From assembly GCA_017415105.1 (NCBI GenBank), contig JAFQJD010000006.1:1-64000 (forward strand): a DNA stretch of 64,000 nucleotides. Direction: 5' to 3'. Of the stretch, positions 20,304 to 52,396 are shown piece by piece. The stretch is from Clostridia bacterium (GTDB taxonomy: Bacteria > Bacillota > Clostridia > UBA1381). How positions within the stretch are numbered: the stretch's first letter is position 1; each line of letters starts with the position of its first letter. The notes under the pieces were generated by a model. It searched no databases, was not told the DNA's origin, and saw nothing but the letters and a program-made list of their open reading frames with translations. Made by a program: the position numbers and the translations under genes.

Positions 20304-23300
20304 ATGAAACGATTTTTAAGTTTTATAATAACAATGGCGATTGTGCTTGGCACATTCCCGGCAGTTTTAGTTTCTGCTTCTGACTTTGACGGAACACCGG
20401 CAACAGCTTATGCAGGCGGTGACGGTTTAACAGCTGAAACTGCATATGAAATCGCAACTGCAGAGCAGCTTGCATATGCGGCATCAAAGGTTAATGACGG
20501 AACAGACAACACGAAGTATTTTAAGCTCACAGCTGACATCGACTACAATCTTCAGGAATGGGTGCCGATGGGTAATTCAACGAATTCTTTCCAAGGAAAC
20601 TTTGACGGTCAGGGACACGTTGTAAAGAATATTAAGATTACAACAGCTCGCCAATATATAGGATTTTTTGGTTCTATTAATGGCGGTACAGTAAAGAACC
20701 TTGGCCTTGAAGGAATGGATAGTAATTACAATAATACTTCTCAACCGGATATGGTAGGTGGTTTTGCCGCTCGTGTTGATAATGCAACTATAACTAACTG
20801 TTATCTTAAGAATTCAATTGTTAAGTATGCTAAAGGACAGGTTTCAAACTGTGTTGGTGTTTTTGCAGCTGTGGTATCTAACGGCTCTATGGTGGAGAAT
20901 TGTTATGTATATAACATCGAAACACTTTCACATGTAAATAATGTTAATGCAGCATTTGCAAATCAGCGTTTGGGAAGCGGCGGTGCAACATTCAAGAACT
21001 GTTATGCGGCAGAGATAAAATTGCCGTTTGACAGACATATATATAGCTTTGGTTCTGATAGCTTGGGAAATGTAAATGTTATTAACTGTTGGTCAACACG
21101 CAAAGCAGTAACGAGTGGTAGCTACTATAAGGCCGATTATGCATTTGGCAGCTACGTTGAAACAAAGGATGAGCTTGTAGCCAAATTTGAGGATGTTGAA
21201 GGCTTCGGTGTTCTATCGACAATCAATGACGGCTATCCGTGTCTTGTGTTTGAAGACGAATCACTAATGCCAACACCGACACCGACGCCGACATCGACAC
21301 CGACACCAACGCCGACAGCTACGCCGACGCCGACACCGACGCCGACACCAACACCGACGCCGACGCCGATACCGACGGCAACTCCGGTGGCTACACCGAC
21401 GGCAACTCCGGTAGCTACACCGACACCGGTTGTTACACCGGCAACAGCATATGCCGGAGGTGACGGTACAAAGGCTAATCCGTATCAGATTTCAACAGCA
21501 TCAGAGCTTCTCTATGCGGCAAATCAGATAAATGCAGGTATTGACAACGAAAAAGCATTCAAGCTCACAGCTGACATTGATTATCTTGGCAACGAATGGG
21601 CACCGATAGGTACTTCAGCAAATCACTTCCAGGGTAGCTTTGACGGTGACGGTCATGTTGTAAAGAATATTTCGATAACGGGTGATACAACATTTGCATA
21701 TGAAGTAGTAGGTTTCTTCGGCTATGTCGGAAACAATGAGAACGGTACAGTAATCACAAACCTCGGTATAGACAATATAACAATTTCGTTCAAGGGAAGA
21801 ACTGCGAATTTCGTAGGTGGATTTGTCGGTTATGTTGAAGCATATACAACTATATCGAACTGTTTTGTAAAGAACTCATCGGTATGCTATGCGGCAAACT
21901 TTGAATCAAAGGGCGGACTTGCAATCGGTTCGTTTGCAGGTCTTGTAAGAAACCTTCCGGGTGCAGCATCAGCAACATACGCTCCGTTGATTGAAAACTG
22001 TTACACATATAATGTTGAGATCAGAACAGCGGCAGACAGAGAGCTTTGCGGTTTTGCAGGATATATGTTCGATAATTATGCGGCAAAGTTTGTTAACTGC
22101 TATGCAGGCGGACTGAAATATCACGCAAACTTTGTCAACACAAATAATGCAAGTGGTGCAAAGTCAACGGTTTACGGTTTTATAAGCAAGCGTGGTCTTG
22201 CAGGGATAGAAGTAACGAACTGTTACTCAACCTTGGCTGGCGGTCAGGGCTCATACGGCACTTATAATGCATCATATTCGGTGGGTAACGTGGGTGCAAC
22301 GAAGGCATCAATCGTATCGGCATTTGAGAATATTGATGTATTTGGCGTAACTGATACCGTAAATGATGGTTATCCGTGTCTGAAGTATGAAGCAGAGGAT
22401 ATTTTAGGACCTATGCCAACTCCGACAGCAACACCGACAGCAACACCGACGCCGACACCGACACCGGTGCCAACACCCACACCAACTCCGGTTCCTACAC
22501 CGACACCCGTTCCGAGTTCGGCAAAGGTTGATATAGGTGAGCTACAGAAGACAGATAACGGCAATGGCACAGTAACAGCATCAGTTGCTGTTACATACAC
22601 AGACCTTGGATTTGACACTGTTACATTTACTGTGGTTGTAAAAGATGCAATGGGCGATATTATCGAGGCACAGAAAGAGACAAAGGCTGTTTCGGCAGGA
22701 ACAGTGAATGATACATTCTCTGTGATTGTGAATACCCCATCAGAGGGTGAGACGATAGACTACTATCTGTGCGGTGATGATAACATATCTCTTATTGATA
22801 ATGCACCGAACGACATCAAGAACTTCAGTGCATCATCAAAGGCAAAGGGTATCAGGCTTACATGGACTCCAAGTGCGGATGATGGCGGAACTGTTGCTTA
22901 TGAAATCTACAGAGACGGTACGCTTATAGACACGGTATATGAGGCGACGTATCTTGCTCCGGGTTCACTTGCAACTGCAAGCACATATAAGGTTATTCCT
23001 GTCGATGTGGCAGAACAGACAGGTGCTTCTGCAACCTCGTCTGCGTTAAAGACAATAGAGATGGATTATATCAATCCGATTGCGACAAAGGGACTAAGCA
23101 TTGTTGCAAGCGATAACAGGAGTGCTGATGCATACAGTAATATATGGGTCACGGGAGATGGCTATAATGTTTTCACCTGTGACACAGACCCCGACGACTT
23201 GCCTCCGGGCGGTGATGGTAACCCGAAATCACGTTTTATCTATTTTGCATTGAATAACGGTGCGATTTCCGGGTCCGATGCAGAGCTTGTATTTGAAATT

Positions 23301-49679: not shown

Positions 49680-49708
49680 TTGTAAAAAAGGGCAAAGTAT
49701 GGTAGAAT
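49680..49708 (+). promoter_or_regulatory. Promoter ahead of mosaic hairpin element 1 and the serpin gene
   Basis: TTGTAA (49680-49685), 17 nt, TAGAAT (49703-49708). If used, it would transcribe the whole hairpin element as the leader of the serpin gene (about 255 nt). Confidence 0.5.
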
Positions 49709-49732
49709 AGATTTAACAAAGTTAAATCTATT
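49706..49732. promoter_or_regulatory. Perfect 12-bp palindrome overlapping a promoter
   Basis: AATAGATTTAAC - AAA - GTTAAATCTATT. It overlaps the -10 box and probable start site, as an operator would. As RNA it is an AT-rich hairpin without a T-tail, so a terminator is less likely. Confidence 0.5.
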
Positions 49733-49733
49733 C

Positions 49734-49908
49734 AGCTAAATTCGCTTGGCAGCGAGCTAAATGTGCTGACGCACGCTAAATTACTTCGTAGCTAAATTGA
49801 CCTGCGGTCAGCTATTAAGCGAATTTAATTTAGCTACTCCGAAGGAGTTATTTAGCTATGGAACGAAGCGGAATAATTTAGCTTTGCAACTTGTTGCAAA
49901 ATTTAGCT
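49734..49908. repeat. Mosaic multi-hairpin element 1 (AGCTAAAT family)
   Basis: The 8-mer AGCTAAAT, or a close variant, recurs at 49734, 49755, 49774 and 49790. Its reverse complement ATTTAGCT recurs at 49828, 49850, 49876 and 49901. Between spacers sit small hairpins: CGCT-TGGC-AGCG, GTGC-TGAC-GCAC, TAC-TTC-GTA, TGACC-TGC-GGTCA, then ACTCC-GAA-GGAGT and TTTGCAAC-TT-GTTGCAAA. The whole is a large inverted repeat whose arms carry side hairpins, so its RNA could fold into a branched tree. No coding potential. Confidence 0.8.
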
Positions 49909-49971
49909 AAAATAAGTGTCATCTAAATCGTTCAATGATTCTATAATTATAAAAAATGCGGAGGTGATTCC

Positions 49972-51663
49972 ATGAAAAAAGTTATTTTGTTTTTACTCGT
50001 GGCTATGTTGTTTGTTGTAGGTTGTGCAACTGCAAAGGACGGTGTAGAAAACAATATAAATAAGCCAAGCGAATGGGCAGAGAGTTACGCGTCAAAAGCG
50101 ATAGAATTGGGTATAACTGATGGCGTGGATGCTTTATGGCTTGAGCCGGTAAATCGTGAGCATTTTTGTGAATTTGTGTACAATATGTTGGATAAAACAG
50201 GCGTAGAATGGACTGGAACGATAGAAAACCCGTTCGGTGATACCGATAATGAAAAGGTGATTGCCTTATACGGAAAGGGTATTATAGAGGGTAAATCAGA
50301 TGATACTTTTGTGCCTGAGGATGAACTCACACGTGAGGAAGCCGCAACAATTCTTTGCAGAATTGTGCGGTATATGAATCTGCCGTCTACAGAAATGTAC
50401 TATGTTTTTGACGATGAGTCTGAGATTTCAGAATGGGCAATGGATTCTGTTCAGGTAATATGCAACCTTGGCGTTATGAACGGCATTGGCACTAACAGAT
50501 TTAGCCCGAAAGGCAACTACACTGCCGAACAAGCTGTTACAACTTTGGTAAGGTTGTTTGATATTATCCCGGGCGAAGAAAATACAAATTTATCATTTGC
50601 TGACAGCCTTAATGGCGAAATGCCAGACGATGCGAATTATATGTTCTCGCCGTTGTCTATTAAAATGGCACTGGCACTTGCAGCAAACGGTGCTGAAGGT
50701 GAAACACAGCAGGAAATACTTGATACAATTGGAATAACAGATTTAGACCAGTATAATGAATCAGTAAAAAGTATGATTAAAAGCTATTCTGAATCAGATT
50801 TGCTGAAGATTGACATTTCGAATTCCATATGGATAAATTCTGATAATACGCCACAAAAATTTTCAAAAGAATATTCTAATAAGGTTACAGAGTATTTTAA
50901 TGCAGAATCCGATACGGTTACCAATAAAACGGCATTGCCCAGAATCAATGGCTGGGTAAATGATAAAACGCATGGGAAAATTCCAACAATTATCGGCGAG
51001 GACAATATAGACTTTGGTGCTATGCTTATAAATGCCGTATATTTTAACGGTAGATGGCAGAATGAGTTTTACAAGGGTGTAACTGAAAAAGATGTGTTCA
51101 TTGACAAGAATGGCAAAAAAACCGATATAGAGTTTATGAACAAAACATCAGATATGAGGTATGCAAATACAAATGATGTGCAAATCATTGAGCTTCCGTA
51201 TATGGTTGATGAGAAATCTGAAGATATGTATATCAGCATGTATTTAATGATGTCAGATGCAGAATTTGAGCCGGAGGCGGTATTAAATTCAGCGGAGCTT
51301 TCCTCAACGTATGTTGCACTGTCTCTGCCGAAGTTTAAAGTTGAATACAGTACAGGTTTGAATGATATTCTTAAAAAGAACGGAATACAAAAAGCTTTTA
51401 GCAGCAGGGCTGAATTCGGGAATATGTTTGATGGCGGAAATATGTTTATTAGTGACACTTTGCATAAGACATACATAGAAGTTGATGAAGAGGGAACAGA
51501 AGCGGCGGCTGTTACTGCAGTTACAATGAAGGCGACATCGGCTATGCCCACGCCAAAACCTGAACCTATAGAGGTTAAGTTCAATAAACCATTTACGTTT
51601 GTAATACGAGATAATTCAAACGGCGAAATCCTGTTTATGGGTGAATATTCATATGCAAAATAA
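49972..51663 (+). CDS. Surface lipoprotein: SLH domains fused to a serpin
   Basis: 563 residues with a lipoprotein signal (lipobox-like VVGC, Cys18). Residues 30-190 hold SLH-type repeats (WAESYASKAIELGI, LTREEAATILCRIVRY, ISEWAMDSVQVICNLG, YTAEQAVTTLVRLFDI). Residues 200-563 are a serpin: NYMFSPLSIKMALALAANGA, INGWVNDKTHGKIPTII, LINAVYFNGRWQNEF, the hinge EEGTEAAAVTAV and a C-terminal FNKPFTFVIRDNSNGEILFM. The Ala-rich hinge indicates an inhibitory serpin. Counting from the hinge, the cleaved bond would be Thr522-Ser523, suggesting elastase- or subtilisin-like targets. The ribosome binding site GGAGGTGAT is near perfect. It may protect surface proteins from host or microbial proteases. Confidence 0.9.
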   Translation: MKKVILFLLVAMLFVVGCATAKDGVENNINKPSEWAESYASKAIELGITDGVDALWLEPVNREHFCEFVYNMLDKTGVEWTGTIENPFGDTDNEKVIALYGKGIIEGKSDDTFVPEDELTREEAATILCRIVRYMNLPSTEMYYVFDDESEISEWAMDSVQVICNLGVMNGIGTNRFSPKGNYTAEQAVTTLVRLFDIIPGEENTNLSFADSLNGEMPDDANYMFSPLSIKMALALAANGAEGETQQEILDTIGITDLDQYNESVKSMIKSYSESDLLKIDISNSIWINSDNTPQKFSKEYSNKVTEYFNAESDTVTNKTALPRINGWVNDKTHGKIPTIIGEDNIDFGAMLINAVYFNGRWQNEFYKGVTEKDVFIDKNGKKTDIEFMNKTSDMRYANTNDVQIIELPYMVDEKSEDMYISMYLMMSDAEFEPEAVLNSAELSSTYVALSLPKFKVEYSTGLNDILKKNGIQKAFSSRAEFGNMFDGGNMFISDTLHKTYIEVDEEGTEAAAVTAVTMKATSAMPTPKPEPIEVKFNKPFTFVIRDNSNGEILFMGEYSYAK

Positions 51664-52150
51664 AGTGACAGTTCATCCGTTCCCGCCGCTATATGATGAA
51701 AACTCAAAAATACTTATTCTTGGTAGTTTTCCATCAATAAAATCCCGTGAGCAGATGTTTTTCTATGGGCATCCGCAAAATCGGTTCTGGAAAGTCGTTT
51801 CAACGGTATTTGATGATAAAATTCCATGCAGCATAGAGGAAAAGAAAGAGTTTTTGAGGCTGCACGGTATCGCATTGTGGGATGTTATTGCATCGTGCGA
51901 AATTGATGGTAGTTCAGATAGTTCGATTAAAAATGTGAAGGTAAACAACATTTCGGAAATTTTGAATACAGTAGATATAAAAGCGATTTTTGTCAATGGA
52001 AAAACTGCTGAAAAGTATTATAAAAAGTGTATGGAAAAAACAGTATGCAGAAGTGCAATATGCCTGCCGTCAACATCACCGGCAAATGCTGCATGGTCTA
52101 TAGACAGACTCATTAAAGCATGGAGTGTTATAAAGGAACAGGTAGTATGA
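51653..52150 (+). CDS. DNA-deoxyinosine/uracil glycosylase-family protein
   Basis: 165 residues of the uracil-DNA glycosylase superfamily, closest in motif to the hypoxanthine/deoxyinosine glycosylases: ILGSFPSIKSREQMFFYGHP and QNRFWKVV at the N-terminus, ALWDVIASCEIDGSSDSSI in the middle, and STSPANAAWS at the C-terminus. It removes damaged bases from DNA, probably in base excision repair. ATG 51653 overlaps the end of the serpin gene by 11 nt and has GGGTGA 8 nt upstream inside that gene, so it is translationally coupled to the serpin. That pairing is functionally odd and may reflect only gene packing. Confidence 0.85.
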   Translation: MQNKVTVHPFPPLYDENSKILILGSFPSIKSREQMFFYGHPQNRFWKVVSTVFDDKIPCSIEEKKEFLRLHGIALWDVIASCEIDGSSDSSIKNVKVNNISEILNTVDIKAIFVNGKTAEKYYKKCMEKTVCRSAICLPSTSPANAAWSIDRLIKAWSVIKEQVV

Positions 52151-52317
52151 TTTCAAGCAACGCTTGAAATCGTCGATGTAAATCTGTTGTGAGATTTTCG
52201 ATATGTGCTAAAGCACTCGATATGCCTGTCGGCTTGATATGTTGCTGACGCAACGGGATTTATATCATATCGATTTTACGAAGTAAAAATATTGAGCATT
52301 CGAAGATTGTATATCGA
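52150..52317. repeat. Mosaic multi-hairpin element 2 (TCGATAT family)
   Basis: It opens with ATTTCAAGC-AAC-GCTTGAAAT. The spacer TCGATAT (variant TTGATAT) then recurs at 52198, 52217 and 52234, and its reverse complement ATATCGA (variant ATATTGA) at 52267, 52289 and 52311. Side hairpins are GTGCT-AA-AGCAC, GCC-TGTC-GGC, GTTGC-TGAC-GCAAC and TTTTAC-GAA-GTAAAA. The architecture is the same as element 1 with a different spacer, and two hairpin tips are shared. It lies between the DNA glycosylase gene and a small membrane protein gene. Confidence 0.8.
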
Positions 52318-52396
52318 CAAAAATCAGTCGGCATCTAAATTGTTCATAAATTCAGGGATATCAATTCCTGACGGAATTTGATGAGGAGGTATAGAT

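Follow-up and report, generated by a model that had tools for sequence, protein, structure and literature searches.

The IVS of 23S rRNA genes, reported from Leptospira and Coxiella, carry an IVP/S23 gene between inverted-repeat flanks and have been called selfish or mobile by an unknown mechanism, a mobility that has stayed unsettled since the early 1990s (PMC4990558). BOX elements of Streptococcus are small interspersed repeats composed of a variable number of modules and structured if transcribed (PMC3049150). The REP/BIME sequences linked to RAYT (Y1) are many-copy intergenic palindromes, and Avd of diversity-generating retroelements works with a reverse transcriptase.

The elements described here resemble each of these systems in part. 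IVS sit in rRNA hairpins (PMC4990558), and one subgroup of our elements sits in terminator loops, but IVS are single long stems within rRNA genes that RNase III removes from the transcript, whereas the present elements are dispersed and multi-copy, have arrays of 4+4 spacers and hairpins upstream of the gene and include gene-less derivatives. They share with BOX, compared by description only, the organization in small modular interspersed repeats; there are no coding copies of BOX, in contrast to the spacer subfamilies presented below, which have a cognate gene. They are many-copy intergenic palindromes as are REP/BIME, from which they differ by a host genome devoid of Y1 transposase and by a constant part that consists of the spacers and not of the stems. 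The first-pass annotation of the locus had designated an already catalogued repeat family as the observation that would speak against it. None was found in Rfam (no match in the window at gathering threshold) or in the open-access literature searched, which contained no description of the family and nothing for GCTAAATTCGC or for IVP together with a mobile element or MITE. This family of jumping elements in gut bacteria is apparently undescribed.

The window, a stretch of 64,000 nucleotides of Clostridia bacterium contig JAFQJD010000006.1, contains a cluster of hairpins of about 230 bases ahead of a serpin gene, in which the spacer-hairpin array proper occupies positions 49735-49907 (features of the window are on the + strand). 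The layout described at first pass, four direct and four inverted spacers each parted by its own hairpin, is confirmed. The direct spacers GCTAAAT begin at 49735, 49756, 49775 and 49791 (49735-49797) and are separated by hairpins L1 (49742-49755), L2 (49763-49774) and L3 (49782-49790). Hairpin L4 (49798-49810) and a middle segment follow (together 49798-49827); the latter contains GCGAATTTA (49819-49827), in which TAAATTCGC from the array start returns in inverse orientation, as is also the case in other spacer subfamilies. The inverted spacers ATTTAGC begin at 49828, 49850, 49876 and 49901 (49828-49907) and are separated by R1 (49835-49849), R2 (49857-49875, with G.A mismatches) and R3 (49883-49900). 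Strict spacer identity, also claimed earlier, holds for the 7-mer GCTAAAT and fails for the 8-mer, the third direct spacer reading CGCTAAAT. All seven exact matches to AGCTAAAT in the 64-kb window fall in these 175 bases, the window-wide chance expectation being 3.35.

The limits initially set at 49734-49908 are slightly short for the unit, which runs from a left-end hairpin with 13-bp perfect arms and an AAA loop (49705-49733) to the end of a conserved 40-nt right tail, TAAAATAAGTGTCATCTAAATCGTTCAATGATTC followed by TATAAT (49908-49947). This tail recurs at C23:23205-23243 in the host genome and follows the IVP gene in autonomous copies. The unit does stand between a promoter and the serpin start: upstream, beyond which lies an AraC-type gene, a native host promoter (TTGTAA-17-TAGAAT with TG before the -10; 49680-49708) overlaps the left hairpin with its -10 box, and downstream a gene encoding an SLH domain and a serpin (49972-51663) is a host gene outside the element. 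The copy is not inside a 23S rRNA gene, and the window contains no rRNA match. A second element, IVP-less and degenerate, is found 2.2 kb downstream of the first (52148-52353); it belongs to the (T)CGATAT spacer subfamily, and its left hairpin and tail (GGCATCTAAATTGTTCATAAATTC) are related to those of the first. In the region 13147-46095, the window holds a succession of ORFs of very large size, SLH domains being present in some of them, and coding CCGACN-type repeats, for example at 21205-21420.

A genome search for the spacer-hairpin pattern, advised by the first-pass annotation, returned 29 occurrences versus none for the reversed control pattern; this count and the clustering of spacers in 175 bases rule out chance or low complexity. 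The family is represented six times in the host genome: by C12 (the window copy), C22, two copies in C23, C26 and C33. A search of species genomes with a 22-base pattern recovered no fewer than 116 stretches; the matches listed are all MAGs, most of them from gut or rumen, labelled Ruminococcus, Oscillospiraceae, Ruminococcaceae, Clostridia/Clostridiales/Eubacteriales or Bacillota, and many copies of the family are known from metagenome assemblies. The GCTAAAT array is missing from all 15 congeners searched. Twelve of 95 genomes in the order do have it; they represent six of 27 genera and include another family, as expected of a horizontally moving element. The phages and plasmids searched contained no similar DNA. 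Of 120 stretches from viral contigs that match the bare pattern of three spacers, only L327 has hairpins between them. It is the sole contig labelled viral to hold a true GCTAAAT hairpin array, is 4.4 kb long and may be a misassigned bacterial contig. Long direct-only GCTAAAT-hairpin arrays of 8-13 spacers, intergenic and without the inverted half, were also encountered (L086, 3627-3875; L121, 5258-5531; L078, 4014-4230).

Several copies can be compared with their insertion sites. C33 lies in the promoter of a gene that we take to be hprK from reading its protein sequence, and 13 congeners have this promoter uninterrupted. TATAAT is found on both sides of C33 and also of C23b. C22 follows the CCA of a tRNA-Lys(CTT) gene and CCA is found again after its tail, an arrangement with CCA at both ends also seen in another family; congeners with readable downstream sequence have this tRNA gene without the element, followed by unrelated terminators. 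Directly behind this GCTAAAT element (G000:C22 right of 9110, - strand; L030) stands an array whose spacer is ATGAATTG and which has a terminator-like left hairpin of its own, so that a single tRNA carries two subfamilies in tandem. Comparison of the window locus, another check proposed earlier, gave homology with the congener G015 through the AraC-type gene and the promoter, up to TA.AATA at the element start; the gene beyond is a different one, so that the locus is only a partial empty site. The end repeats of the window copy are not identical (TAGAAT/TATAAT). The TATAAT and CCA repeats may well reflect a target duplication, but they are short, context-dependent and sometimes unequal.

In a rumen subgroup, most copies are flanked by the left and right arms of an intrinsic terminator and so sit in its loop (mean of 9.7 for the flank arms versus 6.3 for mismatched flank pairs, inflated by A/T tracts); terminator-arm flanks are not clear for L123, L132 and L076. 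Native promoters immediately precede C33, C23b and the window copy. The idea that the element brings its own promoter was rejected for the serpin and hprK sites, where the promoters are native. A left hairpin representing an inverted copy of the target flank was rejected for the promoter type, because this hairpin has the same sequence at unrelated loci in other species (L038, L042, L043 and L077).

The C23 locus contains, in order, the array, a 119-aa ORF, a 158-aa ORF and the tail that directly follows the array in the window copy. The 119-aa product matches PF05635 (E 2.9e-28) and TIGR02436 (E 4.7e-33), above the cut-offs. The AlphaFold model of IVP is a four-helix bundle (pLDDT 95.7) close to the S23 protein 2rld (TM 0.92) and with the same fold as Avd (4dwl, TM 0.79), from which it is set apart by a host genome devoid of reverse transcriptase. 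The 158-aa ORF has the look of a membrane protein by sequence. IVP and the tail are likewise separated by a further small ORF, hydrophobic at its start, in L032 (4530-5006), L225 and L214; no known-family relative was found for it in the copy tested. L038 and L178 keep a truncated IVP start and are intermediates towards gene-less copies. IVP is present in all 12 array-bearing genomes versus 22 of 83 array-less ones (Fisher p 1e-6, the genomes being treated as independent though related). The gene follows the array by 25-30 nt on the same strand in seven of 61 elements and is never upstream or antisense. A direct-plus-inverted spacer array precedes 20 of 41 IVP genes, versus 0 of 820 shuffles and 5 of 922 random places; some of these genes were chosen by the GCTAAAT pattern, but it was a search for IVP alone that gave the matches with other spacers. 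IVP genes of another clade (L201, L207, L217, L218 and L220) have no arrays and are flanked by AT-rich repeats, TTGAAAATTGAAAGT and ACTTTCAATTTTC, apparently inverted; they possibly constitute a second, IVS-like element type.

Sister subfamilies were found by starting from IVP genes and not from arrays. The same layout precedes many of these genes, with the spacers CGATAT (TCGATAT), GTGATATT, TGAAAT, ATGAATTG or ATGAAG. Left hairpins (TGATTTCATC-GAA-GATGAAATCA and TGAATTCAAGC-AAA-GCTTGAATTCA) and the CATCTAAAT tail are common to several subfamilies, direct and inverted spacers are complementary in every one, and the first hairpin word recurs inverted mid-array in most. In a tree of 39 IVPs, the proteins associated with GCTAAAT (12), GTGATATT (7), TGAAAT (3) and CGATAT (3) form single clades that cross different host families, and no spacer type with several members is split. 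The tree requires six changes of spacer label, which is the minimum (shuffled mean 22.3, 0 of 200), a clustering to which closely related rows add and which joint descent as a unit would produce even without recognition. We take these spacer-matched clades as the best evidence that IVP belongs to the array, which it probably recognises. The perfect co-segregation of spacer type and IVP clade lends indirect support to the protein-binding array suggested at first pass.

The + strand of the window array folds better than any of 200 shuffles as RNA and as DNA, with z values of -5.7 (RNA, +), -7.0 (RNA, -) and -7.9 (DNA, +). Stems vary between copies yet stay complementary: in 116 distinct left hairpins from 77 elements, 499 of 510 stem pairs (98%) are Watson-Crick, in line with the modular, non-random build noted at first pass, and the right hairpins of 77 elements have 799 such pairs out of 910. 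At individual positions of the stems, as many as four types of pair occur. Mismatches in distinct right hairpins are G.A in 65 cases versus C.T in 3 and G.T in 13 versus A.C in 4, and the large excess of G.A over C.T designates the + strand as the structured one. A nested structure was scored on 26 aligned copies by pairing spacer n with its mirror spacer, with every junction flanked by a hairpin on either side; 97.3% of the cells are paired versus 89.0% when shuffled, and two-sided changes number 143 versus 50.5 in shuffles (0 of 500). RNAalifold returns a related nested structure. We infer that left-right spacer pairing yields a nested chain of four-way junctions; as GCTAAAT spacers are nearly invariant within their own subfamily, the evidence for spacer pairing comes from the comparison between subfamilies. 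G.T accounts for about 1% of stem pairs, a rarity suggesting that selection may act on DNA or that template switching renews the stems.

The best explanation, which we consider probable, is that the window carries an IVP-less copy of a mobile-element family with a cognate array-recognising protein. A complete element comprises, in order, the left-end hairpin, the 4+4 inverted spacer-hairpin array, the IVP/S23 four-helix-bundle gene, often accompanied by a small membrane ORF, and the conserved tail. One strand would fold so that the spacer duplexes form a trunk, each junction bearing a hairpin to either side. IVP is probably oligomeric, as its solved relatives are, and would bind its own spacer type and thereby recognise cognate arrays in cis and in trans. 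Movement would need a further host or unlinked enzyme and would favour promoter -10 boxes, tRNA 3' ends and terminator-hairpin loops. We read the window copy as a derivative inserted at the -10 box of the native promoter, which should now transcribe the element as a serpin leader; a regulatory-leader function, and with it the branched regulatory RNA suggested at first pass, is possible. The mobile palindromic element proposed at first pass is well supported by the many copies, the empty orthologous sites, the patchy distribution across families, the constant ends and fixed part order, and the presence or absence of the gene. To these are added the compensatory hairpins, the left/right complementarity kept when the spacer changes and the equivalence of IVP clade and spacer type.

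The element encodes no recombinase and none was identified in trans by searching Y1 transposases and reverse transcriptases. Y1 transposase has no match in the host assembly, which is 94% complete, and RVT_1 none in the host genome or in nine of the 12 array-bearing genomes; RAYT/Y1 and reverse transcriptase were rejected as drivers, both being absent from the host genome. We tentatively raise the idea, somewhat less probable than not, of a new kind of mobile element without transposase or reverse transcriptase of its own, in which the chain of four-way junctions, encoded by the spacers, would be recognised by the S23/IVP oligomer that matches it and would be inserted into melted or hairpin DNA such as -10 boxes, tRNA 3' ends and terminator loops; the rRNA IVS would be a specialised branch. 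Several IS families are compatible with a TA or TATAAT target, and gene-less short copies, a palindromic make-up and short end repeats would also suit a MITE- or REP/BIME-like passenger moved wholly by a conventional transposase in trans, with IVP as a cargo gene. We find such a passenger unlikely given the host genome without Y1 transposase, the lack of IS-like terminal inverted repeats noticeable by eye and, against the cargo role, the match between IVP clades and spacers.

The array might instead be a cis-regulatory RNA, an IVP-bound leader, the scattered IVP-less arrays forming a trans-controlled regulon and the IVP gene being autoregulated. The window, hprK (C33) and IVP (C23b) copies would be leaders by their position, and the strand-biased mismatches of the right hairpins fit RNA; this reading is nevertheless doubtful, as other copies lie behind tRNA-gene terminators or in terminator loops, the loci are not common to congeners and the proportion of G.T pairs is low for a selected RNA. 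Static 'selfish' hairpin arrays, growing by slippage or template switching and spreading by ordinary gene transfer, would explain the direct arrays of 8-13 units (L086 and L121), and template-switch repair could generate near-perfect, ever-changing stems. They would not be expected to display a fixed 4+4 layout with constant ends, clean empty sites and IVP co-segregation, and we hold this explanation to be very improbable.

The mobile-element family bears on the S23/IVP proteins, which are widespread and structurally solved and have had no known function since the 1990s. It offers cognate DNA or RNA sites and, in spacer type versus IVP clade, classes of specificity, together with empty sites and derivatives that lack the gene. 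With such sites and classes, S23/IVP function becomes directly testable by binding assay. One kind of intergenic clutter made of palindromes in the genomes of gut Clostridia is explained by the family as well.
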